This document shows positions 4,457 through 41,415 of a DNA stretch of 64,000 nt, piece after piece; position 1 is the first letter of the stretch, and every line of letters starts with the position of its first letter. A model generated the notes under the pieces. It was not told where the DNA came from, searched no databases, and saw nothing but the letters and a program-made list of their open reading frames with translations. The stretch is from NCBI GenBank assembly GCA_002794775.1, contig NBAY01000046.1, positions 124,001-188,000 of the forward strand, given 5' to 3'. The position numbers and the translations under genes are program-made. The stretch comes from Porodaedalea pini (taxonomy: Eukaryota > Basidiomycota > Agaricomycetes > Hymenochaetales > Hymenochaetaceae).

Positions 4457-7400
4457 TCAGGCGGGAGAGACAATAACTGTGAATCGTTTCTCTGACGTAT
4501 TGGGATTTCGAACGACCCCAGCACCTTCGGCGGGCGGTTCTCGACCACCTTCCGTTGCCTCTGACGAAACATACGAACCATCTGATCTCCTTCTATCCCA
4601 CCTCATATCAATGATCCGGACCTCGTCGCCCGCAGCCACCGTCTCCTGCTGCGGAGCGGCCCCCGCGCCCCCTTCCGGAGCCTCAGCAACCCTGCGCGTG
4701 TCAGTCACCCTAATCTTCGGGAGGGGCACCGCAGGTCCACAATCGAGGGGAATAAGTTGCCAGATAATCTTCTCTTCCGCGCCCGGGATGAGTGTCGGAA
4801 GGCGACCGTTGCGGATGCCGGCGGCGACGAAGCTTTCGGTAGGCTCGAGGTCTAGCGAGACCATCGGGCATGCCGATCGTGTCGGGTGATGGTTCCGAAC
4901 GGTAAGCTCGAGCAGGAAGGGCTGGTGCAGATGGACGAGCGGAGGCACATGCAGGAGAGCTATGAGCCCATCTGAAGGGGGCTTGAGGGGAGGAAGGGCG
5001 AGCTGAGTCGAGGACAACAAGCCTGGGTTTCCTGTATCAGATAGTCTGGGAAATAATAAGGTTAGTCTGTAGAGAGGAAAAGACGGCAAATGAAGAACAC
5101 CGACCTCCTCCAGTCAAGGCGATACTTTCCTGCTCTACTCAAGGTCGCATCTAGATCAGCGAAGAAGTCGTCAGGGGGTGCGAGGCTGAGCTCGCACAGA
5201 ATGGAAAACTGGTCGCCGGGCATGAATTCTGGGAGGACCAGTTAAAATTCTGCTTCATTGCATATCCAAGGACTTACCGGCAGGGAAGTCCTCATCATCC
5301 AGGGAATAATGGATGACCTTTGAATATATGCTTTCCTATGATCGTTTAGCATATAATCTGCAACTGTGTGTATGAAGCATTCTTACCTCCGAATCAAGCT
5401 TGATGTTCTCAATCATCACACTGCTCGCACCAACGCATTCCACACATTCAAAGGTAGTTGTGACGAAGGCGCGTCCACCCTCGCTGTCATCCCAATATTC
5501 TGAATCAAATGTCGAAAGATCGGCAGGCCCATGTCCCATCGATGTGCGGCGAGCGTATGTCGTCTCGTGTGAGACGATGAAGGGCGAGACTGCTGGCAAG
5601 ACAAGCGTTTGCAGTACTTCACTAATCTCCACTGGGGATGCTGATGGATCCGATTCCAAATCAGACGGCGGTGCGATCGTTCGTGATTGAACAGAGACAT
5701 CAATCATACGCTCCCCTGCCACGCCGGTGCTTACAAGGTGCAGTGTCTTGCACGCTGTCGTACCAGGATGCAGCGTCCCAAATGATACGCCCTTGATCAG
5801 CCCTGATGACTGCGATTCCTCTATAATGATGTGATTTACTGGAGAAAACGGTTCAGCATCGATTTGTTTCAGTTTGGGAAAAGATGGATAGTTACCTGAG
5901 TCATCATCACCTGGTTGTAAGAGAACATCTAACGAGAACTCCAGTTCTCTGTCATCGTTATTGGTCACATCAACGCTTATGGGATACGACTCGTCGAGAT
6001 ATGCGGGTGGGTGGTGAGAGAGGACGACATCTACTTGGTGAGGTCGATGTTTGACGCTGAACGTTCATAAGTATGGTCAATTCACAGAGGCCACGACAGA
6101 AACGATGGTGACTCACATGACAGAAGAGGCATTAGCTCGCCGTATCGGGACAAACTTCGGAGGTGTTTCTGTAATCGAGCACAACCACCTTGGACTCGTG
6201 AGCGCCGCATCTCGTCGACCAAGATCGAACGGCACTTCGATGTTCCAGCCACTCTCCGAGATACAGATTTCAGCTCTCGTAAACTTCACCAAAGGCTTTC
6301 GTCAGTATCCATGGTATTCCGCAGAGATGAAGAAATAGTTGTAGTAATACCTTGAGCTCTTGCGGTACTTCCGAGGACATCGTTCCCGCAATGATAATTG
6401 TCCCGCCTCTGTGCCATTTAAGGCTCGCTTCAACCTGCTTTTTCTCGTCTTTTAGCAGTACCAAGTGACCAGCATCGACGCGGATGATCGCCTCAGTGTC
6501 CTCTTCCACTTGACTGTCGCCTTGATCGCTTCCCGGAGTAACGTGCCATACAGTAATAGACGAACGTCCGTCAGAAGAATACACTCTAAGCATGCTTATT
6601 GGGAGCCCAGAGAGAATTACACCCTCTGGAACGGTCAAGCTGATCTGAAAGGCCACCTGTTCGCTAAGCTTGATCTCTGGCGCCCAGAAAACGACTGAGG
6701 AATCCACTGGGAGAATATCGATGCCTTCAGGGACGATCGCTTGCAAATTAAAGGGCCACGTACAAAGCGGTTCGCTCTCCGTCAAATCGATCACGACGGG
6801 CTCGGCAGAGGACGGCACTGTACTCTGAAAGTTATACAATACGAAATCAGTGTCACTTCGTTGCTTCAAGGCTAGGTCTCGATACACACCTTTAGGATGG
6901 CATGCAGGTCTTCCGCAATGGTCTCCTCGTCGTCCTGCATGTTCGTTTCGCATGCTGAAACAAGTAAAAACAGAGTTCAACTCCTTTCACGAAGTTGGAC
7001 AATAGCAAATAGACAAACAATGGCCTCTGGCGATCATCTCAACCAGTAGACGTACGCTCATCTCTACATCACCGAGTTGCTGAGCACATGCGTACCACGT
7101 CGCGAGCAGTGGTCGCAACACAGATCCCCACTTCTCTCGGCTGTACGTACGCGCTATGCGCTCGAAGAATCTTAAATTTGGAAAGGAGGAAGTATGTCAG
7201 AAATTACCTTTTATCAGTCTGCTAGAGGTCTAGACTGACCTGATAGACATGTCGTATTTGCCCGACTCGTAATATGTCTGCGCGATGCGGTAGGCAATCC
7301 ATAATGTGAACCGGCCCTGCATTTGATTCTGCACAGTCACTGGCGCAGCACTGTATTTTTTGAAAAGCTCGTACGCCTTCGTGTACAGCTGTGTATAACA

Positions 7401-18251: not shown

Positions 18252-20518
<2,267 letters not shown>

Positions 20519-25224: not shown

Positions 25225-25400
25225 TGCTCCACGCGATATCATTGTTGGCTCTTATTTCCCATATTCTCCTATCTACGTGTTGCTCGAGTCGGACATAGCT
25301 GTACGCGAGTAATCATAGAAGCAGCCCGAGCGCGTGCTATTAGTTGTGCACCCTGGTGGCGATATTACCGTCTACCGACAGAGATCTCGTTATCACGGCG
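25225..25400 (-). pseudogene. 5' fragment of the phosphotransferase-like gene
   Basis: The plus-strand text CGCGATATCATTGTTGGCTC and the following 60 bases match, with scattered changes, the start and promoter side of the intact gene near 22600-22680. The next 60 bases match its upstream region (a GCGATATxACCGT word occurs in both). Orientation is as in the intact gene. Only the first exon and promoter remain. It sits just downstream of MFS copy A, as the larger fragment at 44.8 kb sits just downstream of copy B. Confidence 0.65.
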
Positions 25401-25589
25401 CGTACGCGTTGCTTTAAAAAGGAACTCAAAAAATCCTTAGAAAACAGTCGAGAATCGATCTCGTCGTTAGAGGTTTCTGGACAAAAGATAGCCGGTTATA
25501 CGCGTGGGAGCAAAGTGACTCGGATCCGTTCATTCATATTCGTCTCACTCAACAGGCTGACACAGGAAAGACAAGAGGAAAACGTTAAC

Positions 25590-26341
25590 TCAATAAAGGT
25601 ACCTAAATCCCTTCTTCCTCTCCAGCGCTTCCTCTAGGGCAATTCCTTCCAATCGAGCAGCGTCTTCGACGCGTTCGCGATTCGCGCCTTTCAATGCACC
25701 GAGCTCATCTTCGTCAAGCTTCCTGTTCATGCGTTTCAGCATGAAACGCATCACTAAACGAGTTTGTTTTGTCAGCTTAAAGAGCTCGTGAAAAGCTTCA
25801 ACCGGGCTCACCAAACGCGAGGAACGAGCTAAATGCAAGTGCTGCGATGCGTATCTCCATCGATTGATGGTACCGCGGGCCCCAAACTGCTTTCCATGCG
25901 TATGAGCCGATTCTTTAAAGTTCTTGAGTTTTCTGTTACTTCTGCAGGTATTTTCCTGGCTTATACGTACAGATTCACTGTGTTACCGATCCCGTTGATG
26001 AGACCGATAGCGGCAGCGCGTTTTGCAGGCGGTCGCGTGATAGTATTCCGAACCCATACGAGGGTGAGGGCAAAGCCTGGCGAAAGATCATCGATACAAA
26101 TTTGATCATTTTTAACCTATATCAATATCGTCATACCTGCATGCCCGCTCGCCATCAGAAATAGTGCGACGTAGCGCCTGCCGACGGAAAAAGTGGAGAG
26201 GGCAATGATGTAGCCCACGATCACGCCCCACCAAGTGATGCAGGTATGGAAGAATCGTTCTCCAGTTCGATCTGTGGAAGGTTCAGATGATGCTGGCGAG
26301 CCCGCATCCAAGACGCGTACCGGCATGTAACGCGTTGAGAC
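25590..26341 (-). pseudogene. MFS transporter copy A, C-terminal part (split by the giant element)
   Basis: This holds the last exons of a major-facilitator transporter of the anion:cation symporter group (relatives carry nicotinate, pantothenate or allantoate). Visible blocks are GVIVGYIIALSTFSVGRRY, LFLMASGHA and the cytoplasmic tail DEDELGALKGANRERVEDAA, ending at 25590. The reading stops at 26341, where the giant inverted-repeat element begins inside a coding exon. The rest of the gene is at 39620-41415. Copies B and C show the same exon uninterrupted. Confidence 0.8.
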
Positions 26342-26407
26342 CACTTCAGGCTACCCCTCTGAGCAGACCAAGTAGGACTATTCATACACACAACTAATTG
26401 ACCATTT

Positions 26408-27953
26408 AGGTATTGACCCTGGGCGTGCCCAATCAGCTGGGCACTCCCAGTGGGTGTGGGTTGGGTGTGCCCAATTTTTTTTACTGTGGGAAAGTTGGGT
26501 GCACCCAGATCATTTGGGCACTCCCAACTGGGCCTGCCCAGTTTTTGGGCACCCCCAGTGGGAGTGCCCTGGGAGTGCCCAGATATGTCACTGTCACTGA
26601 CTGTCTGGGGGACTTTTGGGCACACCCAATTTGTTTTTGCCATAAAATCTAGGGGCTTTATAAATGCTGTATTTTATTGTTTTTAATCCTACAATTTAGT
26701 GATCTTGCTATTGTTTAGTTTATGATTCATTAGCTATGTGACTGACCTTTGGTATGAATTGAATTTTGGTCAACAGTAGTCTGGGTCAGACAGGAAAGAA
26801 TGCTGAGCATGCTAGACACACAGGACAAAATAATATTTGTTGCTATTAGAGGGACTAAGATAATAAAGATAATAGAGATAGTATTGAGCAGTTCTATATA
26901 CTGTAAAACAAATGGAGAAATAGGGAAATTGTACAGTAGTATGAGAGAAATGGAAATAAATATGAGTCAGCTAAAAGTGTAATGACTACCTAAGAAATCA
27001 TTAATGGTATTCTAACATTAAACATTGGGAATCAAGCTCTAGCATTCTAACTATATCAGAGAGATTATATGTCATAGGCTCTATGAGAACTTCTAACTAG
27101 AGTGATATAGCTGCACTGGACACTTAAGTAGAGCTATTGAAAATTAAACAAGTGCAAGGGTCTGATACATTAGGATCAGTTTGAATGCCTAAGTAGAGTA
27201 AAGAGTATAAACTAAGAGAGAAACTGAGATTGAAACATAGAAAGAGTGTAAGCCCACTGGAGCATTCTTATCATTTCTGACATGTTGCTGACCTTCTGAA
27301 CATCATAACTTGACTTTGAGGTACTAAGCATCTAACGCTCTGAGATACACAAAGTATCAATACAGTGTAAAATCCCAGGATGCAGGGGAAGAGATTCAAA
27401 GTTGAAATGAAAGAGAGACTTGAAAGCAATCAGGCTTAAGCCATGCTTAAATATTAGGCCTGGACTACTAGCTTAAAAGATTGGATATGACTAGTTGACT
27501 GTATCTAAATCTTTTACAGGTGCCTAGTTGAGTATACTCAGTATACCCAATTATCTGGGAGGGCCCAGTTGGGTGCGCCCAATTATCTGGGGGGGCCCAG
27601 TTGGGTGCTCCCAATTATCTGGGGGCACCCAGTTGGGTGCTCCCAATTATCTGGGGGTGCCCAGTTGGGTGCACCCAATTATCTGGGGGCACCCAGTTGG
27701 GTGCACCCAATTATCTGGGGGTGCCCAGTTGGGTGCACCCAATTATCTGGGGGCACCCAGTTGGGTGCTCCCAATTATCTGGGGGTGCCCAGTTGGGTGC
27801 TCCCAATTATCTGGGGGCGCCCAGTTGGGTGCTCCCAATTATCTGGGGGGGCCCAGTTGGGTGCGCCCAATTATCTGGGGGCACCCAGTTGGGTGCTCCC
27901 AATTATCTGGGGGGGCCCAGTTGGGTACATCCAATTGACTGAGAGTACCTAGC
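26408..27953. mobile_element. Possible nested element with GC-rich subterminal repeats (left arm)
   Basis: A GC-rich block (26417-26640) and the tandem array (27531-27937), built from the same CCCAGTTGGG / GGGCACTCCC words, bracket 0.9 kb of AT-rich DNA. Just outside them TAGGTATTGACC and, in reverse complement, TAGGTACTCTCAGTCAATTG look like short inverted ends. This layout resembles subterminal transposase-binding repeats. The mirror copy spans about 38008-39553. The ends are weak, so these may instead be the subterminal arrays of the giant element itself. Confidence 0.35.
27531..27937 (+). repeat. Tandem array, 12 copies of a 32-base GC-rich unit (left arm)
   Basis: The unit is CCCAGTTGGGTGCTCCCAAT followed by TATCTGGGGGCA, with 1-3 variable positions per copy. 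Variable bases fall mostly in the middle of GTGCxCCC and in the linker GGGGxxCCC, so each copy keeps the partly palindromic TTGGGTGCxCCCAA. Because 32 is not a multiple of 3 the array is open in several frames, which creates artefactual repetitive ORFs. Confidence 0.95.
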
Positions 27954-28193
27954 TATATAAGGTCTTTTTTAATTCCTGCCTTAGAATCATTTTTTAAAAT
28001 GCAAAAAATCATTATGTCATGAAAATTAAATAAGTCTAGAATGGAAGCCTTAATAATTCTATGGATCAATTTCTCAATCATTTTGTTCTAGACTCTGCAT
28101 CTTGGCAGCTTCGCTCTGAAGACAAATCAATACACTGCAATCATTGACCCAACACCAGAGCTGCCACGAGATCAAAGACAAGCAAGCATAAAA

Positions 28194-28283
28194 CTTCATT
28201 TTGAAGAGATTACCACCCTGCTCCTCAATAGTGCTCTGTATCTTCTCAATTGCATGCTCAAGGCACTCAGTTGCTGCATACTG
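28194..28283 (-). pseudogene. Possible eIF2-alpha C-terminal fragment (left arm)
   Basis: A 30-codon minus-strand stretch reads ECLEHAIEKIQSTIEEQGGN and then LFKMK. This pattern resembles the C-terminal domain of translation initiation factor eIF2-alpha, where an A-x-x-x-I-x-x-x-I helix is followed by GG and a short strand ending KMKP. Similarity stops on both sides. The fragment is short, so the assignment is tentative. Confidence 0.35.
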
Positions 28284-28301
28284 CAAACTCAAAATAAGTA
28301 T

Positions 28302-29628
28302 AGGGTTGACGAGGAATACATGTTGATGCGTGTCGCTCAGATTGAACAGGATGCTGCTCATCAAGAAAAGGATGCAATGGCAGTGTATGGCATGCTTTCT
28401 GGTTCAGAGCCCCATATTTCTCCTCTTCGTCATGCTCTCGCTGTCTTTGGCCTTACGCCAGATGACATCAATGTTCTTTCCATCCACGGCACCAGCACCA
28501 AGGCCAACGAAAAGAATGAAACACAGATCTGGAACGATGTTTTCTCTACGCTTGGTCGTACACTTGGAAATGCAGTTCCAATTATGGCACAGAAGAGCTT
28601 ATGTGGTCATTCAAAGGGTGGATCTGCTGCTTGGCAACTCGCCGGTCTGATTCAGACCGTTGGTTCAGGTATCGTTCCCGGAAACCGAAACGCAGAGTAA
28701 GTCATTTTTGGTTCCTCTATAGTGCCGATCTCATTTCTTTCTTGTTTAGTAACGTCGATGCCGATTTCTGCAAGCATGAGTATCTTATGTTGCCTTCGAA
28801 AACTATCCATACAGATGGCATCTGTTCCGGTATCATGGTATGTTGCTCCATTATCTTTCACATACTAGTCCCAATCTCAACATCTTACAGTCGTCTTTCG
28901 GCTTCAGCCAAGTTGGCGGCACCATACTCGTCATCCACCCTCGCTTCCTTCTCGGCGCTGTCGAGCCCGCACAGTACGAGGGGTACAAGCTCCACAACCG
29001 CGAGCATGCATTGGCATGCTACAAAGCCATGACCTCCATGATGACCATAAACTCACTGGTTGAGATCAAGGACGCACCTCCGTATTCGAGCGAGCTGGAA
29101 GTTCCTGTTCTCCTCAACTCTCTGGCACGTGCGGCGCTTGACGATAAGACCGGCAGCTACTCGCTCCCGAAAAAGTTTGCCACAAAGGCGACATTTAATG
29201 TTTCAAATGTCGAGGCTGCTGCCAAGGCCCTTGCAACTGGTAAAGGCTCTCCTGGTGTTGGCGTCGATCATGGTAAGTCTAATTCATATCAATCATCTGA
29301 AACTCACAGCATACTAATTGGCATTTCGGAGCTCATTTCCGCTATCCCGTCGTCTAACCCGACTTTCATCTCACGTAACTTTACTGATACGGAGATCGCT
29401 TACTGCCGCTCGCAGCCTTCACCCGCGGCATTGTTTGCTGCGCGCTGGGCTAGCAAGAAAGCGGTCTTCAAGTTACTTGGAGTCGCTTCGAAGGGATCAG
29501 CGGCAGCGATGGAGGACATCGAGATCCTTCCTGATGCATCGGATGTGCCGTCCGTGACGCTTCACGGCGATGCGCTTGCTGCTGCGGATAGTAAGGGAGT
29601 CACGCAGGTGCACGTGAGTCTCAGCCAC
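28302..29628 (+). pseudogene. FAS2: Fatty acid synthase alpha subunit (FAS2) 3' fragment (left arm)
   Basis: It covers the end of the ketoacyl synthase domain and nearly all of the phosphopantetheinyl transferase domain. Marks are the SIHGTSTKANEKNET catalytic-histidine motif, MAQKSLCGHSKGG, GFSQVGGTILVIHPRFL, then GVGVDHELISAIPSSN and FISRNFTDTEIAYCRSQ. Introns are retained at 28697-28749 and 28838-28890, so the source was genomic DNA. Lesions: the third intron (from about 29272) ends CGG where an AG acceptor is needed, and the transferase motif reads RWASKKAVFK, with Lys replacing the catalytic Glu of the usual WxxKEA. Homology stops abruptly after VSLSH, where the cyclin fragment (opposite strand) begins. 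The first ~1,500 codons of the gene are missing. Confidence 0.9.
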
Positions 29629-29663
29629 GTAGCAGAGCGCCGACTGCAGGACGCTACGTCTCG

Positions 29664-30288
29664 TGCGTGAATGGCGAGGCGAGTGCGATGCAGCGCGTAT
29701 GCGACGAAGTGCGCAAGCGTATTCGGTATCACTGGTGCTCCTCCTGATCCTGCCGTTGCGGTAACAGGGGAACGCGAGACGACTGTGGTCGAGGACGATG
29801 TGGAAGAGGTGAAGGACGACGGAGGAAGGATCTCGGTGCAGTTGAAGGTATGGCTGACGAAGCGCGCACAGAGCTTGCTGGTGTCTTCGTGCCCGTAGTA
29901 AGTGGCGACTGCCGGTGGGGGTGCTGCCGGCGCGGGGTGGTGCGAGTGGTGTGCGCGCGGGACTGCCGATGACTATTTTTTTGTCGAACGTTTTCGGCGC
30001 GGTCGGAGGAAAAAAAACGCGATAGAGAAAAAGACACCGATCAACAGCCACTCATCACTCAAGTATCAGAGATCGGGGGGAAAGAGGGGGGACGCTTACA
30101 GAACTCGAGGTAGATGCTGCGGCAGCGGCGGACGCAGAAGACGATTTCGCAGGTGGAGGCGGGGCGTACGTCGCGCGGTGCACGCGCCGGAAGGGCGAGT
30201 GGTTCGAGCTGGCACTCGATGATGATATCGAATGCTGATGCGGATGCGGATGGGGGTGGGGATGGCGCGGGGCGTGGACGGTGGCCAT
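29664..30288 (-). pseudogene. Pcl/Pas1-type cyclin 5' fragment (left arm)
   Basis: Read on the minus strand. An ATG (MATVHAPRHP) and a His/Ser-rich leader end in a GTAAGC donor after 63 codons. An intron follows, and then an in-phase exon reads YYGHEDTSKLCARFVSHTFN and, after a Ser/Thr-rich loop, NTLAHFVAYALHRTRLAI. The last block matches the first helix of the cyclin box in fungal Pho80/Pcl-family cyclins (the x-FIxYALHRTRL pattern). Homology ends near 29664; the remaining cyclin box is missing. About 290 bases that could be the cyclin promoter lie upstream, up to the S6 fragment. Assignment rests on the cyclin-box start only. Confidence 0.55.
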
Positions 30289-30583
30289 ATTCGCTGCGGC
30301 GGGCTCTCTGGCTCTGGGCGTTGACGAGCGTCTGTGAGCGTCAAAGGACAGGTGGAGTTGATGCGTGAGAAGAGGTCGCTACGAATGTTTTGATTGGAAC
30401 GAGATCCTTCTCGGACACAACGGTTGCGTCGCGTTCGCCGAAGTGCGCAGTGAGAAAGGCAGATGAGAAAACGGCTGACGTCGATGTTGAGGCGTGTGGA
30501 ACATTGGCGGGGGCAGAAGGAAGAGGTGAGGAATGCGTCCCAGGTGAACAGGGCGAGGGAAGTTGAACCGCTCGACGGTTTCG

Positions 30584-30860
30584 GTGAATGTCGCCAGTCC
30601 CTCCCTGCCTGACAATGACGAGAGAGAGGACAGCGACGTTGCGACCGATGATGCAGCCACGGGCCGGCTTGCACTTTCTCACCAGTGCGGCAGAGACGGT
30701 AGCAAGAGTGACCAGCAGAAAGGAGAAGGCGAGCAGTTAGGAATGAGTACACCCTGCTTCATCGGGAAGTCCTGCTCGTCGTTTCCGCCAGAGACGCGGA
30801 AGACGTAGCCCTTGAACTCATCACCGACCAAGTCGCTGGGGACACCTGGGACATCTTCTT
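30584..30860 (-). pseudogene. RPS6: Ribosomal protein S6 (eS6) fragment with frameshifts (left arm)
   Basis: The minus strand reads in three successive frames: [18 protein letters not shown] then DFPMKQGVL; next [11 protein letters not shown]; next ARGCIIGRNVAVLSLVIVRQ. These are the consecutive conserved blocks of small-subunit protein S6, so the piece is a continuous stretch of that gene broken by at least two frameshifts. Neither end of the protein is present. Confidence 0.75.
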
Positions 30861-30877
30861 GCCGTGGAAAATGCGGT

Positions 30878-31973
30878 AACGACCACCTCGCTATGAAGCA
30901 CTTCTCGGTAGAAGGTCAGCTCGAATTCAAGGCTATTCTCTACATTCCGAAGCGGTGAGTCTCCTTGCTGGCCTTGCTATGAACCTGTTTCTGACGTCTC
31001 TTTTAGCGCACCGTTGGACCTCTTTGAGTCCAAGAAGAAGCGTAACAACATTAAGCTCTACGTCCGCCCCGTCTTCATTATGGACGACTGCGAGGATCTC
31101 ATCCCCGAGTACCTTAACTTCGTCAAGGGTATCGTCGACTCTGAGGATCTCCCGCTCAACATCTCGCGTGAGACGCTCCAGCAGAACAAGATTCTCAAGG
31201 TCATCCGCAAGAACATCGTGAAGAAGTGCCTCGACCTCATCCAGGAGATCTCGGAGGACAAGGACAACTTCAAGAAGTTCTACGAGGCGTTCGGCAAGAA
31301 CCTCAAGCTTGGTATCCACGAGGATGCGCAGAACCGCAGCAAGCTCGCCGAGTTCCTCCGCTTCTACTCGACGAAGTCGACTGAGGAGCAGGTCTCGCTG
31401 AAAAAGGGTACGTGTTCAAGCGGCGGCCCTGTTCCGTTATTTGGTTGCTGACAGCTTACCGCAGACTACATCACGCGGATGCCTGAGATTCAGAAGTCCA
31501 TCTACTACCTCACTGGCGAGTCGCTCAATGCCGTCAAGGACTCTCCCTTCCTTGAGGCTCTCAAGAAGAAGGGCTTCGAGGTACTCCTGCTTGTTGACCC
31601 GATCGACGAGTACGCCGTCACTCAGTTCAAGGAGTTCGACGGTCACAAGCTCGTGTGCGTGTCGAAGGAGGGTCTGGAGCTCGAGGAGACCGAAGAGGAG
31701 AAGGAGCGCGAGAGTGAGGCCTCGCAGTTCGAGGAGCTCTGCAAGGTCGTCAAGGATGCGTTCGGCGACAAGGTCGAGAAGGTCGTCATCTCGAACCGCG
31801 TCACCGACTCACCATGTGTGCTCGTCACCGGCCAGTTCGGCTGGTCCGCAAATATGGAGCACTTCATGAAGGCGCAGGCGCTTCGCGACTCGTCAATGTC
31901 ATCGTACATGGCGTCGAAGAAGACGCTTGAGCTTAACCCGCACAACGCGATCATCAAGGTCCTTCGATGTTGA
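30878..31973 (+). pseudogene. HSP90: Hsp90 middle and C-terminal domain fragment (left arm)
   Basis: Three exons (30878-30954, 31007-31407, 31465 on) with intact GT-AG introns encode [17 protein letters not shown], the [16 protein letters not shown] block, the catalytic-loop region [31 protein letters not shown] and [20 protein letters not shown]. The N-terminal ATPase domain and the terminal dimerisation/MEEVD part are absent. Homology breaks at KVLR, where a TGA follows two codons later. One visible change from the usual ERIMKAQ is EHFMKAQ. The remaining reading frame is undamaged, so capture is recent. Confidence 0.93.
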
Positions 31974-32822
31974 TCGTCTTTTGCTGGCCCATCGCCAGGT
32001 CAGCGATGTCGACACTTCATGGCCGGTGGTGTCTTGAGGAGGAGCTCGTCGTGTTCTGTCCCTTCAGGCAAGCAAAAAAAATGATGAGAAGTAATTATTA
32101 GTATATTCAAATAGTTTTTATGATTATTTTTTTTCGCTTACCTTGAGTGTGTGGCCGGTGGGACAGCCGTGCTCGTCGTCGATGGTGAAGACGAAACGAC
32201 ACGAACAACGACGACGCGTTGGTTGTGTTGCCTAATTTGGCCGATCGCCGCGTCTCAAACAAGCAATCAAAGCATTCCGATTCTTTCGGAAATCTCGAAA
32301 GTCTCAGCTGTTGGCCTCAAACAAATTCTACGGACGCGTTTAAAAATACAAAAAAATATGGAATGGTTTTATTATGTATGTATCTCTATCATAGCCAATA
32401 ATTACGCGTCCAACGCGTTTTTTTATGGAGTCATAAATACAACAGTAATCTTGACATGCAGCACCAGGCCTCCAGAAGCATACACAAAAGTACAATATAC
32501 CCTGAAAGGCCTGACACCTATTCTATCATGAAGTAAGTGATACATTGTGTATGTATGCAAGGTTTCAAGCCAATCAGACATGAACTGACTTCATAATAGA
32601 GAAGGAGGTGGTTTCATGAGATCTTCTGAATCTGAGTGTTTTGTATATCCTGTTCCCACTTTCTACTTTGATGGTACATAAAATATTAAGTATATCCAGA
32701 ATGAATATTTCTATGTTTCTGTAAGTTTACAAGTTTCCAGCCTCAGTGGTTGGAGCTGGGTGAATTGCAAAACATCGAAAAGCATGGTTTTTAGAAGTTC
32801 AGAGAAAGCATATATTCATGTT
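31974..32822. other. Innermost part of the left arm, non-coding
   Basis: AT-rich, with several ACGCGT words (32215, 32335, 32405). It contains a stretch CAAGGTTTCAAGCCAATC near 32560 that resembles the GTTTGAAGCCAATCC of the palindromic elements at 54-57 kb. No convincing gene. Confidence 0.4.
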
Positions 32823-33141
32823 GTTGCTTTATTCTAAACCTCAGGAAGCTCTATAAAATAAATATTAATACTTTTAATGACTACAATGAATGTAATCAGG
32901 TGCTAGATCTCAGAGTTAGAGGAAAGTTCTGAAGGGGGAGAGAAAATACATGCAAAACTGCTCTGTGTTTCTTGGATTTGTGTCGAGTTTCACAAAACAT
33001 GAACTGTATCACCTCTCATTTCACTCCCAATTCCGAACTTTTCCCTCACCCACAAAACTAAGGACTGGATATCTTTCTTGGAGCATACTTAAATACAAAG
33101 AAGTAATTTTGTTGAGCTTCTCATACTGTGAACCAACTAAA
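32823..33141. other. Unique centre (loop) of the giant inverted repeat
   Basis: This 319-base sequence breaks the symmetry between the two arms. It is AT-rich, has no inverted symmetry of its own and no recognisable gene. Its presence means the structure is not a perfect head-to-head palindrome. Confidence 0.85.
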
Positions 33142-33990
33142 AACATGAATATATGCTTTCTCTGAACTTCTAAAAACCATGCTTTTCGATGTTTTGCAAT
33201 TCACCCAGCTCCAACCACTGAGGCTGGAAACTTGTAAACTTACAGAAACATAGAAATATTCATTCTGGATATACTTAATATTTTATGTACCATCAAAGTA
33301 GAAAGTGGGAACAGGATATACAAAACACTCAGATTCAGAAGATCTCATGAAACCACCTCCTTCTCTATTATGAAGTCAGTTCATGTCTGATTGGCTTGAA
33401 ACCTTGCATACATACACAATGTATCACTTACTTCATGATAGAATAGGTGTCAGGCCTTTCAGGGTATATTGTACTTTTGTGTATGCTTCTGGAGGCCTGG
33501 TGCTGCATGTCAAGATTACTGTTGTATTTATGACTCCATAAAAAAACGCGTTGGACGCGTAATTATTGGCTATGATAGAGATACATACATAATAAAACCA
33601 TTCCATATTTTTTTGTATTTTTAAACGCGTCCGTAGAATTTGTTTGAGGCCAACAGCTGAGACTTTCGAGATTTCCGAAAGAATCGGAATGCTTTGATTG
33701 CTTGTTTGAGACGCGGCGATCGGCCAAATTAGGCAACACAACCAACGCGTCGTCGTTGTTCGTGTCGTTTCGTCTTCACCATCGACGACGAGCACGGCTG
33801 TCCCACCGGCCACACACTCAAGGTAAGCGAAAAAAAATAATCATAAAAACTATTTGAATATACTAATAATTACTTCTCATCATTTTTTTTGCTTGCCTGA
33901 AGGGACAGAACACGACGAGCTCCTCCTCAAGACACCACCGGCCATGAAGTGTCGACATCGCTGACCTGGCGATGGGCCAGCAAAAGACGA

Positions 33991-35086
33991 TCAACATCGA
34001 AGGACCTTGATGATCGCGTTGTGCGGGTTAAGCTCAAGCGTCTTCTTCGACGCCATGTACGATGACATTGACGAGTCGCGAAGCGCCTGCGCCTTCATGA
34101 AGTGCTCCATATTTGCGGACCAGCCGAACTGGCCGGTGACGAGCACACATGGTGAGTCGGTGACGCGGTTCGAGATGACGACCTTCTCGACCTTGTCGCC
34201 GAACGCATCCTTGACGACCTTGCAGAGCTCCTCGAACTGCGAGGCCTCACTCTCGCGCTCCTTCTCCTCTTCGGTCTCCTCGAGCTCCAGACCCTCCTTC
34301 GACACGCACACGAGCTTGTGACCGTCGAACTCCTTGAACTGAGTGACGGCGTACTCGTCGATCGGGTCAACAAGCAGGAGTACCTCGAAGCCCTTCTTCT
34401 TGAGAGCCTCAAGGAAGGGAGAGTCCTTGACGGCATTGAGCGACTCGCCAGTGAGGTAGTAGATGGACTTCTGAATCTCAGGCATCCGCGTGATGTAGTC
34501 TGCGGTAAGCTGTCAGCAACCAAATAACGGAACAGGGCCGCCGCTTGAACACGTACCCTTTTTCAGCGAGACCTGCTCCTCAGTCGACTTCGTCGAGTAG
34601 AAGCGGAGGAACTCGGCGAGCTTGCTGCGGTTCTGCGCATCCTCGTGGATACCAAGCTTGAGGTTCTTGCCGAACGCCTCGTAGAACTTCTTGAAGTTGT
34701 CCTTGTCCTCCGAGATCTCCTGGATGAGGTCGAGGCACTTCTTCACGATGTTCTTGCGGATGACCTTGAGAATCTTGTTCTGCTGGAGCGTCTCACGCGA
34801 GATGTTGAGCGGGAGATCCTCAGAGTCGACGATACCCTTGACGAAGTTAAGGTACTCGGGGATGAGATCCTCGCAGTCGTCCATAATGAAGACGGGGCGG
34901 ACGTAGAGCTTAATGTTGTTACGCTTCTTCTTGGACTCAAAGAGGTCCAACGGTGCGCTAAAAGAGACGTCAGAAACAGGTTCATAGCAAGGCCAGCAAG
35001 GAGACTCACCGCTTCGGAATGTAGAGAATAGCCTTGAATTCGAGCTGACCTTCTACCGAGAAGTGCTTCATAGCGAGGTGGTCGTT
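33991..35086 (-). pseudogene. HSP90: Hsp90 fragment (right arm copy)
   Basis: Mirror copy of the left-arm fragment with the same exons, the same breakpoints and the same EHFMKAQ change. The encoded segments are identical. Confidence 0.93.
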
Positions 35087-35103
35087 ACCGCATTTTCCAC
35101 GGC

Positions 35104-35380
35104 AAGAAGATGTCCCAGGTGTCCCCAGCGACTTGGTCGGTGATGAGTTCAAGGGCTACGTCTTCCGCGTCTCTGGCGGAAACGACGAGCAGGACTTCCC
35201 GATGAAGCAGGGTGTACTCATTCCTAACTGCTCGCCTTCTCCTTTCTGCTGGTCACTCTTGCTACCGTCTCTGCCGCACTGGTGAGAAAGTGCAAGCCGG
35301 CCCGTGGCTGCATCATCGGTCGCAACGTCGCTGTCCTCTCTCTCGTCATTGTCAGGCAGGGAGGGACTGGCGACATTCAC
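35104..35380 (+). pseudogene. RPS6: Ribosomal protein S6 fragment (right arm copy)
   Basis: Mirror copy carrying the same frameshifts as the left arm, so the damage predates or was homogenised after arm duplication. Confidence 0.75.
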
Positions 35381-35675
35381 CGAAACCGTCGAGCGGTTCA
35401 ACTTCCCTCGCCCTGTTCACCTGGGACGCATTCCTCACCTCTTCCTTCTGCCCCCGCCAATGTTCCACACGCCTCAACATCGACGTCAGCCGTTTTCTCA
35501 TCTGCCTTTCTCACTGCGCACTTCGGCGAACGCGACGCAACCGTTGTGTCCGAGAAGGATCTCGTTCCAATCAAAACATTCGTAGCGACCTCTTCTCACG
35601 CATCAACTCCACCTGTCCTTTGACGCTCACAGACGCTCGTCAACGCCCAGAGCCAGAGAGCCCGCCGCAGCGAAT

Positions 35676-36300
35676 ATGGCCACCGTCCACGCCCCGCGCC
35701 ATCCCCACCCCCATCCGCATCCGCATCAGCATTCGATATCATCATCGAGTGCCAGCTCGAACCACTCGCCCTTCCGGCGCGTGCACCGCGCGACGTACGC
35801 CCCGCCTCCACCTGCGAAATCGTCTTCTGCGTCCGCCGCTGCCGCAGCATCTACCTCGAGTTCTGTAAGCGTCCCCCCTCTTTCCCCCCGATCTCTGATA
35901 CTTGAGTGATGAGTGGCTGTTGATCGGTGTCTTTTTCTCTATCGCGTTTTTTTTCCTCCGACCGCGCCGAAAACGTTCGACAAAAAAATAGTCATCGGCA
36001 GTCCCGCGCGCACACCACTCGCACCACCCCGCGCCGGCAGCACCCCCACCGGCAGTCGCCACTTACTACGGGCACGAAGACACCAGCAAGCTCTGTGCGC
36101 GCTTCGTCAGCCATACCTTCAACTGCACCGAGATCCTTCCTCCGTCGTCCTTCACCTCTTCCACATCGTCCTCGACCACAGTCGTCTCGCGTTCCCCTGT
36201 TACCGCAACGGCAGGATCAGGAGGAGCACCAGTGATACCGAATACGCTTGCGCACTTCGTCGCATACGCGCTGCATCGCACTCGCCTCGCCATTCACGCA
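35676..36300 (+). pseudogene. Cyclin 5' fragment (right arm copy)
   Basis: Mirror copy: exon 1 at 35676-35864, intron, exon 2 from 35992, with similarity ending near 36300 after AYALHRTRLAIHA. Confidence 0.55.
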
Positions 36301-36335
36301 CGAGACGTAGCGTCCTGCAGTCGGCGCTCTGCTAC

Positions 36336-37662
36336 GTGGCTGAGACTCACGTGCACCTGCGTGACTCCCTTACTATCCGCAGCAGCAAGCGCATCGCCGT
36401 GAAGCGTCACGGACGGCACATCCGATGCATCAGGAAGGATCTCGATGTCCTCCATCGCTGCCGCTGATCCCTTCGAAGCGACTCCAAGTAACTTGAAGAC
36501 CGCTTTCTTGCTAGCCCAGCGCGCAGCAAACAATGCCGCGGGTGAAGGCTGCGAGCGGCAGTAAGCGATCTCCGTATCAGTAAAGTTACGTGAGATGAAA
36601 GTCGGGTTAGACGACGGGATAGCGGAAATGAGCTCCGAAATGCCAATTAGTATGCTGTGAGTTTCAGATGATTGATATGAATTAGACTTACCATGATCGA
36701 CGCCAACACCAGGAGAGCCTTTACCAGTTGCAAGGGCCTTGGCAGCAGCCTCGACATTTGAAACATTAAATGTCGCCTTTGTGGCAAACTTTTTCGGGAG
36801 CGAGTAGCTGCCGGTCTTATCGTCAAGCGCCGCACGTGCCAGAGAGTTGAGGAGAACAGGAACTTCCAGCTCGCTCGAATACGGAGGTGCGTCCTTGATC
36901 TCAACCAGTGAGTTTATGGTCATCATGGAGGTCATGGCTTTGTAGCATGCCAATGCATGCTCGCGGTTGTGGAGCTTGTACCCCTCGTACTGTGCGGGCT
37001 CGACAGCGCCGAGAAGGAAGCGAGGGTGGATGACGAGTATGGTGCCGCCAACTTGGCTGAAGCCGAAAGACGACTGTAAGATGTTGAGATTGGGACTAGT
37101 ATGTGAAAGATAATGGAGCAACATACCATGATACCGGAACAGATGCCATCTGTATGGATAGTTTTCGAAGGCAACATAAGATACTCATGCTTGCAGAAAT
37201 CGGCATCGACGTTACTAAACAAGAAAGAAATGAGATCGGCACTATAGAGGAACCAAAAATGACTTACTCTGCGTTTCGGTTTCCGGGAACGATACCTGAA
37301 CCAACGGTCTGAATCAGACCGGCGAGTTGCCAAGCAGCAGATCCACCCTTTGAATGACCACATAAGCTCTTCTGTGCCATAATTGGAACTGCATTTCCAA
37401 GTGTACGACCAAGCGTAGAGAAAACATCGTTCCAGATCTGTGTTTCATTCTTTTCGTTGGCCTTGGTGCTGGTGCCGTGGATGGAAAGAACATTGATGTC
37501 ATCTGGCGTAAGGCCAAAGACAGCGAGAGCATGACGAAGAGGAGAAATATGGGGCTCTGAACCAGAAAGCATGCCATACACTGCCATTGCATCCTTTTCT
37601 TGATGAGCAGCATCCTGTTCAATCTGAGCGACACGCATCAACATGTATTCCTCGTCAACCCT
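36336..37662 (-). pseudogene. FAS2: FAS2 3' fragment (right arm copy)
   Basis: Mirror copy with the same mutated third acceptor and the same Glu-to-Lys change in the transferase motif. Confidence 0.9.
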
Positions 37663-37680
37663 ATACTTATTTTGAGTTTG

Positions 37681-37770
37681 CAGTATGCAGCAACTGAGTG
37701 CCTTGAGCATGCAATTGAGAAGATACAGAGCACTATTGAGGAGCAGGGTGGTAATCTCTTCAAAATGAAG
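37681..37770 (+). pseudogene. Possible eIF2-alpha fragment (right arm copy)
   Basis: Mirror copy of 28194-28283; the same tentative assignment applies. Confidence 0.35.
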
Positions 37771-38026
37771 TTTTATGCTTGCTTGTCTTTGATCTCGTGG
37801 CAGCTCTGGTGTTGGGTCAATGATTGCAGTGTATTGATTTGTCTTCAGAGCGAAGCTGCCAAGATGCAGAGTCTAGAACAAAATGATTGAGAAATTGATC
37901 CATAGAATTATTAAGGCTTCCATTCTAGACTTATTTAATTTTCATGACATAATGATTTTTTGCATTTTAAAAAATGATTCTAAGGCAGGAATTAAAAAAG
38001 ACCTTATATAGCTAGGTACTCTCAGT

Positions 38027-38424
38027 CAATTGGATGTACCCAACTGGGCCCCCCAGATAATTGGGAGCACCCAACTGGGTGCCCCCAGATAATTGGGCGC
38101 ACCCAACTGGGCCCCCCAGATAATTGGGAGCACCCAACTGGGCGCCCCCAGATAATTGGGAGCACCCAACTGGGCACCCCCAGATAATTGGGAGCACCCA
38201 ACTGGGTGCCCCCAGATAATTGGGTGCACCCAACTGGGCACCCCCAGATAATTGGGTGCACCCAACTGGGTGCCCCCAGATAATTGGGTGCACCCAACTG
38301 GGCACCCCCAGATAATTGGGAGCACCCAACTGGGTGCCCCCAGATAATTGGGAGCACCCAACTGGGCCCCCCAGATAATTGGGCGCACCCAACTGGGCCC
38401 TCCCAGATAATTGGGTATACTGAG
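38027..38424 (-). repeat. Tandem array, 12 copies (right arm mirror)
   Basis: Reverse complement of the left array with the same order of variant units. Three linkers that have seven consecutive G in the left arm have six here; no other length change was noticed. Confidence 0.95.
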
Positions 38425-39619
38425 TATACTCAACTAGGCACCTGTAAAAGATTTAGATACAGTCAACTAGTCATATCCAATCTTTTAAGCTAGTAGTCCA
38501 GGCCTAATATTTAAGCATGGCTTAAGCCTGATTGCTTTCAAGTCTCTCTTTCATTTCAACTTTGAATCTCTTCCCCTGCATCCTGGGATTTTACACTGTA
38601 TTGATACTTTGTGTATCTCAGAGCGTTAGATGCTTAGTACCTCAAAGTCAAGTTATGATGTTCAGAAGGTCAGCAACATGTCAGAAATGATAAGAATGCT
38701 CCAGTGGGCTTACACTCTTTCTATGTTTCAATCTCAGTTTCTCTCTTAGTTTATACTCTTTACTCTACTTAGGCATTCAAACTGATCCTAATGTATCAGA
38801 CCCTTGCACTTGTTTAATTTTCAATAGCTCTACTTAAGTGTCCAGTGCAGCTATATCACTCTAGTTAGAAGTTCTCATAGAGCCTATGACATATAATCTC
38901 TCTGATATAGTTAGAATGCTAGAGCTTGATTCCCAATGTTTAATGTTAGAATACCATTAATGATTTCTTAGGTAGTCATTACACTTTTAGCTGACTCATA
39001 TTTATTTCCATTTCTCTCATACTACTGTACAATTTCCCTATTTCTCCATTTGTTTTACAGTATATAGAACTGCTCAATACTATCTCTATTATCTTTATTA
39101 TCTTAGTCCCTCTAATAGCAACAAATATTATTTTGTCCTGTGTGTCTAGCATGCTCAGCATTCTTTCCTGTCTGACCCAGACTACTGTTGACCAAAATTC
39201 AATTCATACCAAAGGTCAGTCACATAGCTAATGAATCATAAACTAAACAATAGCAAGATCACTAAATTGTAGGATTAAAAACAATAAAATACAGCATTTA
39301 TAAAGCCCCTAGATTTTATGGCAAAAACAAATTGGGTGTGCCCAAAAGTCCCCCAGACAGTCAGTGACAGTGACATATCTGGGCACTCCCAGGGCACTCC
39401 CACTGGGGGTGCCCAAAAACTGGGCAGGCCCAGTTGGGAGTGCCCAAATGATCTGGGTGCACCCAACTTTCCCACAGTAAAAAAAATTGGGCACACCCAA
39501 CCCACACCCACTGGGAGTGCCCAGCTGATTGGGCACGCCCAGGGTCAATACCTAAATGGTCAATTAGTTGTGTGTATGAATAGTCCTACTTGGTCTGCTC
39601 AGAGGGGTAGCCTGAAGTG

Positions 39620-41415
39620 TCGAGACAACAGACAATGGCAGCCCAGATCCATGGAGGTCTGGTCGAGTAATAAGTAACAAGGGATCAACGCCATTCGCGA
39701 AATGAAAAGACTCGACTTACGCAGCCAGAAGCAAAGAAATTGTAGTATTATACCCAAGTGTAGCTGTCAAGCTGAGAGTGGTGTCAACGCTACTCCCGCT
39801 ATCGAAAAACAATACGAGACGTATACTTACGTTGGGAAGAAGTTGGCGAAGGAGAGTCCCAGGAGCATACTCAGCTCCATAAAAAAGAAAATAAGGACTT
39901 TGACATCCTTTATCGCCATCTTCAGGCCTGACCACATCCTGAAAGAAACACACAAGGATACGAGTCTCGTATTGTAACGGAACAAATAATGTATCGTTGC
40001 CGCTCACGAATCCTGAGCCAAATCCTCATCGGCTTCGCCTGTGTCCTCAGAGAGGCGTGCCTGAGCGAGTTGGCGCTCTGCAGGTGACATCCAGCGAGTG
40101 TTGTTTGGCTTAAAGATCTTAAAAGACGTCATAGGTAGAGGAGAAACCGACCCACAAGATCCGGAAGCGACCACCTGTGATTTGAGGTCAACAACTGAAG
40201 CATTTTAGAACATTCCTTTCAGGATACCCACAGTGACAGGATCCCGATAGTGATAGTGATGGCACCCTGCAGAGAGCGACACGTTACTAGACAAAACGGT
40301 AGAAAGCAGTGAGGGATATACGTCAATGAAGAACAGCCTTCATCGACAGTAAATACGTGAAACTCAACTTAAGGGATAAGTTGTGCTTACCATCTCCAGC
40401 CCCTGACTCCCCGCTTCCCTTCCATGTTTGAAAGAATACCAGCCGCCATCAGCTAGAATAACCCCTCTGCATTTAGGACACGCTGGTTCAGCTTAAACCC
40501 AAGTGACCACCTACACTTCCGAATGCGCTCGAGCACATCATGCCTGAGAACAATATAGAGGTTCGGAACGCCAATTCCTAAAATAAGAAAACATTAAAAG
40601 GCACCAGCATTCGACGGACCATATGTTAACAATCGGTAGTACCACGTACCTTCCGAGTATACCATCGCGAAAGAAGATAGACAGTGCCAGGATAAAAAGC
40701 AGCCTGCCAATAAGCGGGAAGCGCAACTTAGATAGCGTAGTGATTCTACTGATGCACTCACTTCGGGGAAGCCTATGAATACCTGGCAAGCGAGAATCTC
40801 AGCATAACTGTGAGTGATCTGTTAAATCAATCAATTTTAAGCAGACAGAGCTCGGTTTTTGAAGTTATTTGAAGGTGCTTACACCAGTCATTGCGTTCGT
40901 TAGGCCCCAGGCAATGACACATATTCCGGTAGACAGCGACGGCCCGTATTATGAGGACGTAGGCAAGCAGAACACCATTTACCGGCATCATCTCACAGAG
41001 CTCGCAGCGTCCCTCGAAACTCGATTCAAAATCTTTGGATCAAACAACATCAGATTTGTCTCCCGCACTAGATGGCCTGACCGTTTACCATATTTGACGG
41101 GATTTGAGCCGTACAATACGACGTGTACAGAATAGCCGCGACAGTATCATACTGTATATCTGAACTAATATCCTCTATTGAGTAGATCACAATGACAACG
41201 CCTCATAAGCCATGGTCGGCATGAATCGCATGTCCAGCTTGCGCAAGAGGCGCTTCTCTGCAATAGTTCGCTCTTTCGAAGACGTGATTACTGAACCCAA
41301 GGCTTCATCGACTCTCCTCGGACTTTCGCGACTTGTAAGGATCCTCCGGGATTCCATAGACCTCATGGAAACTTTGCTCTGCAACAGACTTGTCGGAATC
41401 GAGTTGTGCATCCAT
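39620..41415 (-). pseudogene. MFS transporter copy A, N-terminal part (dead)
   Basis: The ATG at 41415 opens MDAQLDSDKS, homologous to MDARLEPDKS of copy C. One base is missing before the VDEALGS block, which brings a TGA into frame near 41307. After KRLLRKLDMRFMP the next exon (the ARLKGLEQD block of B and C) is deleted and the frame closes. Further downstream exons (helix pairs, EGKxGIRGWRW region, WMSPAERQLAQ-type loop) are present up to 39620, where the giant element breaks a coding exon. With frameshift, exon loss and insertion the gene cannot encode a transporter. Confidence 0.8.

Follow-up and report, generated by a model that had tools for sequence, protein, structure and literature searches.

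How a genome comes to hold a 13,278-bp stretch of DNA whose halves mirror each other, with fragments of housekeeping genes written into both, is the question raised by a window of 64,000 nucleotides in the basidiomycete Porodaedalea pini (assembly GCA_002794775.1, contig NBAY01000046.1, positions 124,001 to 188,000, here C46:124001-188000; the window always means this whole stretch). The element lies at window positions 26342-39619, and we propose, with a probability of about 0.74, that it is a palindromic foldback transposon without autonomy, for which a KDZ transposase likely acts in trans, and whose arms are kept alike probably by arm-to-arm copying, captured host genes included.

Self-comparison and direct arm-to-arm alignment both describe the element, copy C46, as a palindrome. 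Its inverted-repeat blocks, 26342-27597 against 38364-39619 (1256 nt, 100%) and 27910-32834 against 33130-38054 (4925 nt, 100%), are joined by a 32-bp minisatellite, and the sole difference between the arms consists of three single G bases absent on the right, all within that minisatellite. Identity ends at arm base 6481 on the left and 6478 on the right, past which the arms diverge. The two near-identical arms of 6.48 kb around a 319-base centre that the initial annotation had described were confirmed by inverted-repeat search and arm alignment, and chance cannot account for an inverted repeat so long and so nearly perfect. The parts of the element are the following, with the method in brackets.

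26342..39619, no strand: whole element C46 (inverted-repeat search and arm alignment)
26342..32822, plus strand: left arm, 6481 bp (inverted-repeat search and arm alignment)
32823..33141, no strand: centre, or loop, 319 bp (arm alignment)
33142..39619, minus strand: right arm, 6478 bp, the left arm inverted (inverted-repeat search and arm alignment)
26335..26341, plus strand: left target site duplication TTGAGAC (flank comparison with the empty site)
39620..39626, plus strand: right target site duplication TCGAGAC, one change from the left copy and the empty site (flank comparison)
26342..26365, plus strand: terminal 24 bases CACTTCAGGCTACCCCTCTGAGCA (end-pattern scan)
39596..39619, minus strand: identical terminal 24 bases at the right end (end-pattern scan)
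27545..27940, plus strand: 32-bp minisatellite of the left arm, limits approximate (inverted-repeat search and unit count)
38021..38416, minus strand: mirror minisatellite of the right arm, limits approximate (inverted-repeat search and unit count)

Very long terminal inverted repeats (TIRs) that take up the greater part of the length, together with internal tandem repeats, are features of foldback elements, and C46 has both. A Pfam scan found no KDZ transposase domain in the scanned frames of the window copy, for which reason C46 is called non-autonomous. The initial annotation is supported in its view of a gene-capturing foldback element without a transposase of its own.

Whether such a structure is a mobile element or a product of assembly can be judged from the rest of the genome (53.3 Mb in 201 contigs), where repeat counts from similarity searches are lower bounds. 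A genome search of the arm ends, which the initial annotation had suggested, returned 65 matches to the 24-base end at three mismatches or fewer, 57 of these at 0 or 1, and the reversed 24-base pattern, taken as control, returned none. The elements end in CAC...GTG and are flanked by exact target duplications of 6-8 bp at 21 of the 27 end-pairs examined (20 at 7 or 8 bp, 9 of them at 8 bp, and one at 6), while in two more, those of the window copy and C20, the duplication is 7 bp long and mismatched at one base; no pair of the 27 has a duplication of 9 bp or longer, and 0 of 702 mismatched flank pairs used as control reach 5 bp. The left flank of C46 matches contig C19 at 97%, and neighbouring family members on the two contigs share their order and, after subtraction of the element, have near-equal spacing, which makes C19 likely the other haplotype of this locus. 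The corresponding site on C19 is uninterrupted and holds a single TTGAGAC, where the window reads TTGAGAC, element, TCGAGAC. The initial annotation had reckoned with an artefact if other copies and valid outer junctions failed to appear; recurring ends and a clean empty site are what the genome contains, and a multi-copy element family that has moved is supported.

An assembly accident is unlikely in view of the matching target duplications and of the unoccupied site on the collinear contig. False palindromes born of missed-adapter or collapsed reads might be suspected since the palindromes are known from assembled contigs alone, outside the minisatellite no difference separates the two arms of C46, of C121 or of C25, and 4 of the 27 pairs (C25, C14b, C105 and a hybrid on C50) have no target duplication, as expected of misjoined copies; these four also count against our own proposal. 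Such an origin would have to accommodate differing flanks that nonetheless carry matching 6-8 bp duplications, centres common to several palindromes and real left/right differences in other copies, besides the empty site, and we find it barely credible.

Twelve palindromes were fully read (C46, C144, C121, C3, C120, C29b, C19, C25, C20, C35, C57 and C69), ten further end-pairs were covered at their outer 1.2 kb only, and a D group, to which C51 and C105 belong, at its tips only. TIRs in the palindromes measure 6.2-6.7 kb, and the centre of C46 has a full-length match in 8 of the 11 other fully read palindromes and a partial one in C25 and C57, C3 being the palindrome in which it is unmatched. 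C19 and C69 were considered as distinct larger elements, a view rejected on finding that both are palindromes interrupted by long terminal repeat (LTR) elements, presumably Gypsy-type from the look of their frames. The nested LTR element of C69 has direct repeats of 423 bp, 100% alike, and that of C2, a longer relative described below, has repeats of 414 bp, also 100% alike; the nested LTR elements in C19, C69 and C2 are recent insertions that used elements of the palindrome family as targets.

The left end of the hybrid on C50 (C50:61983-97119) is of the D type and its right end of the A type; the hybrid has an HSP90 fragment on both sides, a FAS2 fragment matched on the right side only and no target duplication, and it encloses a further end-pair, 82633-95945, with its own duplication TATACTG. 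In C25, C14b and C105 the arms (or their outer 1-1.2 kb) are identical or nearly so, yet a target duplication is missing. The hybrid and the pairs without duplication may be recombinants or misjoins, and C25, C14b and C105 are candidates for ectopic recombination between copies or for assembly misjoins.

The initial annotation had counted pieces of at least four unrelated host genes in each arm. Three can be named in the window copy: FAS2, HSP90 and ribosomal protein S6e. The fragments and their mirror images in the window are these.

28303..29628, plus strand: FAS2 fragment (Pfam and genome alignment)
36336..37661, minus strand: mirror FAS2 fragment (inverted repeat and genome alignment)
30682..30915, minus strand: ribosomal protein S6e fragment, an open frame with the Pfam match inside (Pfam)
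35049..35282, plus strand: mirror S6e fragment (mirror coordinates of the inverted repeat)
30878..31967, plus strand: HSP90 fragment (Pfam and profile search)
33997..35086, minus strand: mirror HSP90 fragment (profile search)

The first fragment carries a ketoacyl synthase C-terminal domain (E 5.1e-15) and a phosphopantetheinyl transferase domain (E 6.9e-11), a pair that we take to denote FAS2, and it matches the host locus C9:1083515-1084840 at 95% over about 1,326 bp in a single alignment. S6e was recognised in the window arm at E 1.3e-9 and HSP90 in the window at E 1.1e-69 and 6e-73; the host HSP90 gene lies at C3:769757-771424, and a second family member on C13. Captured HSP90 spans profile positions 113-441 and, in the window copy, is broken at 272-273 by a gap of 54 bp, against one of 55 bp in the host gene. 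Since this gap of intron length is retained, the captured pieces are inferred to have come as DNA, and overall the captures look DNA-based and partial. The HSP90 fragment occurs on 22 contigs, on both strands in 20 of them and on a single strand only in C129 and C179 (83 of 91 candidates scored). In many copies it sits in an open frame of 353-354 codons. C57 carries a different cargo, DENND11 (E 2.1e-15 and 7.5e-18) with S6e (E 3e-9). Three further frames of the GC-rich region of the window arm matched no Pfam family, the frame at 30344-30736 of that arm matched S6e only below the Pfam cut-off, and the four frames scanned in C29b had no Pfam match.

What moves elements of this kind is suggested by two longer relatives, likewise fully read. 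C28 (22,052 bp, arms of about 4.0 kb, target duplication ACTTGTAT) and C2 (29,557 bp, arms of about 2.4-4 kb, target duplication TTGCTATC, with the nested Gypsy-type frames) both have a long unique centre. Nine frames of C28 scanned with Pfam yielded a KDZ domain (PF18758, E 2.4e-60), and in eight of C2 a KDZ domain was found at E 8.1e-54 together with CxC1 at E 3.5e-6. The window tip is 95.6% alike to the C28 tip over 229 bp and the outer 1.7 kb of C57 is 92-98% alike to the C28 arm in three pieces, while the D-group copy C51 is 95.9% alike to the C2 tip over 220 bp; these likenesses point to two palindrome cohorts, each beside its own long relative. Given a KDZ domain in long elements with such ends, the best reading of the palindromes is that they derive from KDZ transposons as foldbacks that have lost autonomy, and the shared ends suggest that a KDZ enzyme moves them. 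The initial annotation could match the element to no described fungal family, a statement now superseded: a KDZ domain is present in elements whose ends are identical or sister to those of the palindromes, the target duplications and the CA..TG ends fit published KDZ elements, and the family can be tied to the KDZ superfamily. Part of the evidence pulls the other way, since among 77 KDZ matches genome-wide only those of C28 and C2 fall between ends found by the 24-base scan, and the KDZ domain of C2 is split across two frames.

The open frame of 735 residues that precedes the KDZ region in C2 (18549-20753) has relatives at 35% in Phellopilus and 38% in Sanghuangporus and no Pfam match in either half; its product may serve the element as an accessory protein.

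Target duplications of 7-8 bp also fit hAT and P elements, so that the palindromes might belong to another superfamily with duplications of 7-9 bp (hAT, P/Galileo or MULE), the KDZ genes of C28 and C2 being mere passengers. Both long elements read with such ends contain a KDZ domain, though, and these domains are 86% alike despite tips only about 74% alike, while no other transposase family was matched in the nine C28 and eight C2 frames scanned. In favour of a passenger role stand also the short TIRs of the Cryptococcus KDZ elements, 139-241 bp (PMC12810828); on the other side, CA..TG ends and 7-bp duplications are on record for Kyakuja (PMC12730594). A passenger role for the KDZ genes appears quite improbable to us.

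Pack-MULE elements typically have 9-bp target duplications and a MULE transposase, and this assignment was rejected on the duplication sizes given above (0 of 27 pairs at 9 bp or more) and on the lack of a MULE domain in those frames of C28 and C2 that were scanned, a result that comes with no genome-wide MULE search. Helitrons have no target duplication, no TIR and TC...CTRR ends, and were rejected because TIRs and target duplications are present here and the ends read CAC...GTG.

The likeness of the arms was followed by alignment in ten palindromes with the minisatellite masked, in three groups: A (C46, C144, C121 and C25, with or without C3), B (C120, C29b and C35) and C57 with C69; C19 and C20 stood outside the groups. 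C3 was either left out or limited to arm base 5590, beyond which its inner stretch mismatches the other copies, and 27 of the 31 left/right differences of C69, lying past the loop boundary, were trimmed off. Columns were classed as left equal to right in every copy while copies differ, private to one arm, or mixed, and numbered 79, 10 and 22 in group A without C3 (every left/right difference coming from C144), 72, 19 and 24 with C3 to arm base 5590, 21, 10 and 1 in group B, and 55, 5 and 0 in C57 with C69 after loop trimming. Between the two arms of C46, of C121 and of C25 there are 0 substitutions over 5932-5977 columns per copy, and these copies differ from one another at 59-65 positions; taken together they have 92 columns where left equals right and none differing between arms. 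The same holds for larger changes. In 11 of 14 copies the two arms have the same number of minisatellite units (range 5-21 among those 11), and in C144, C28 and C2 they differ by one unit; where a module of about 1 kb is found on one arm or missing from it, the other arm agrees; the HSP90 and FAS2 modules lie on both arms of every fully read palindrome that carries them, group B being without HSP90 on the compared arm; and a 63-bp indel between the D copies C51 and C105 is mirrored on both arms. As the two arms of one copy mostly resemble each other far more closely than they do the arms of other copies, captures and mutations would pass from arm to arm, and the arms appear to evolve in concert within most copies. 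The first 345 bp fit this less well, several ends being as near to the end of another copy as to their own partner (for instance C120/C40), over a length too short for a tree to resolve copies.

Concert would be needless if palindrome and captures had a single origin and the copies were too recent to diverge. Copies within a group are only 0.3-1.6% apart (C3, at 4.6-4.8%, mostly through its non-matching inner stretch) and hence fairly young, and yet 155 columns (79 + 21 + 55) differ between copies and agree between arms, and whole modules and minisatellite lengths differ between copies and are mirrored in both arms. Without arm-to-arm transfer each such difference would need to have occurred twice, which renders a merely recent origin very unlikely.

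The places where left and right arms do differ bear on how likeness is restored. A tally over 20 copies, which leaves out C144, C28, C2 and C45 and covers the outer 1,150 bp, places 16 of 22 left/right differences within the first 150 bp. Over full arms, in the seven other copies with any differences (C144 left out, the 27 of C69 dropped as above), the same 150 bp hold 9 of 33 left/right differences, compared with 5 of 104 sites that differ between copies (Fisher p 8.5e-4). Tip differences recur at bases 43 and 84 in different copies and some stand in CG contexts, so that the sites behind these tip p-values are not all independent, and the gradient can in part be due to a mutation hot spot. 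C144 has 32 arm differences in its outer 3.2 kb, 0 in 3,265 inner columns, and 8 against 9 minisatellite units; its left arm is nearer to C25 (14 differences, against 36 for the right arm) and its right arm nearer to C46 (24, against 40 for the left). Either the inner half of this copy was equalised or the outer left half was overwritten by another copy, and C144 can be read as having one arm overwritten in its outer half by a C25-like copy. The D copies C51 and C105 have a left/right difference at base 20 in common, from which it follows that arms are not rebuilt at every jump. The recurrent tip sites, the overwritten-arm reading of C144 and the common base-20 difference all count against our own proposal as well.

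A rival account holds that the arms are made identical anew with each transposition, a one-arm hairpin moving and being copied into a full palindrome on insertion. The spotless arms of C46, C121 and C25, with no substitution between left and right while the copies differ mutually, and their 92 columns of agreement are just what it would yield. A whole-arm copy would erase, on the other hand, the base-20 difference of the D copies, the tip differences that recur at 43 and 84, and the two-lineage arms of C144, which has an 8-bp target duplication. Rebuilding at every jump was rejected on the left/right differences shared at the tips and in the D group, and seems to us unlikely. Left/right differences gathered at the tips point instead to occasional, perhaps centre-outward, conversion, and the alignments favour occasional conversion between folded arms, from the centre outwards, over a rebuilding of the palindrome per jump.

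The sequence of events that we propose for a KDZ-moved foldback with equalised arms would run as follows. Groups A, B and C57 would depend for movement on the KDZ enzyme of C28-like elements, and group D on the enzyme of C2-like ones. Host DNA would be captured during break repair or template switching. The arms would then be equalised by gene conversion or polymerase template switching in the folded palindrome, as a cruciform or hairpin; equalisation would begin near the centre and often miss the tips, and may be occasional, not occurring at every jump. A bolder version, which we put forward only tentatively, is a self-templating mobile palindrome that folds and is repaired from the centre outwards, so that a host gene entering one arm would soon be written into the other. 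If true, it would be a mode of gene capture that turns captured genes into kilobase-long inverted repeats, and if these were also transcribed across the loop, the mirrored pairs would be natural double-stranded RNA against the housekeeping genes HSP90, FAS2 and RPS6.

Around the element, the left flank (25342-26341) belongs to a local family with 21 matches, 16 of them on C46 or C19, at 72-80% besides the self match and the 97% match. At 61583-63874 the window contains polyprotein frames that resemble those nested in C19 and C69 and that, from their motifs, we take to be Gypsy-like. The open frame at 19111-20238 is presumably HSP70-like. One neighbouring window protein has its best named relatives in, among others, Sanghuangporus and Phellopilus (Hymenochaetales), as suits a basidiomycete host in or close to this order.

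In Pack-TIR and Pack-MULE elements the cargo sits between the arms, whereas here it lies within both arms as a mirror pair. Otherwise they are comparable, as TIR elements that carry captured host DNA, and Pack-TIR elements are thought to form via gap filling or fork switching (PMC8277862). Identity between arms is also maintained in the palindromes of the human Y chromosome, by conversion with multi-kb tracts (PMC3723533); those are fixed in the chromosome, unlike the mobile and multi-copy palindromes described here. In yeast, the arms of short inverted repeats are homogenised by template switching (PMC8604942).

Among fungal KDZ transposons, KDZ1-3 of Cryptococcus are 9-11 kb long, the TIRs measuring 241 bp in KDZ1 (about 11 kb), 139 bp in KDZ2 and 169 bp in KDZ3, and the duplications 8 bp in KDZ1 and 4-8 bp in the other two (PMC12810828); Zisupton and Dileera make 8-bp duplications (PMC12810828, PMC12730594), and Kyakuja of Laccaria, which lacks TIRs, makes duplications of 7 bp and ends in CA..TG (PMC12730594). 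The elements of P. pini resemble them in their KDZ and CxC1 domains and in duplication sizes, and share CA..TG ends with Kyakuja. They differ from KDZ1-3 and Kyakuja in TIRs of about 2.4-4 kb in the KDZ-bearing elements and 6.2-6.7 kb in the palindromes, and in their captured genes. Among the titles listed by literature searches, with subscription papers mostly outside their coverage, no KDZ foldback appeared, whether with mirrored host genes or without.

How foldback elements acquire long arms and preserve their likeness is an open question, and the Drosophila cases rest on about three copies each (PMC4168063, PMC4079207). Galileo, FB and Tetris of Drosophila, like the palindromes described here, consist for the most part of their long arms, and have tandem repeats in the arms, some copies without transposase and foreign sequence in both arms; a Galileo/foldback copy in D. 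willistoni has arms of 4246 and 4680 bp, for which TIR-to-TIR transfer of a transposable element insertion was proposed (PMC4168063). Galileo has a P-type transposase and a Mutator one was suggested for Tetris, where here the partner is KDZ, and foldbacks have been suggested to arise from different transposable element lineages by transposase loss and TIR growth (PMC4079207), so that the present case would add KDZ to the superfamilies giving rise to them. A single genome here offers dozens of giant palindromes in several cohorts, KDZ-bearing long relatives, an empty site and a half-equalised copy, and the captured housekeeping genes serve as natural tracers by which arm-to-arm transfer becomes countable. 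Host gene fragments multiplied as inverted repeats, as is HSP90 on its 22 contigs, could moreover feed RNA silencing and chromosome rearrangement. Compared with the Drosophila foldbacks, the host is a fungus, the arms reach 6.7 kb, the cargo consists of host genes and the copies are many enough for arm transfer to be counted. Foldbacks as such were already known from Galileo and FB; new here is a KDZ-linked, fungal and larger kind, with host genes mirrored in its arms.

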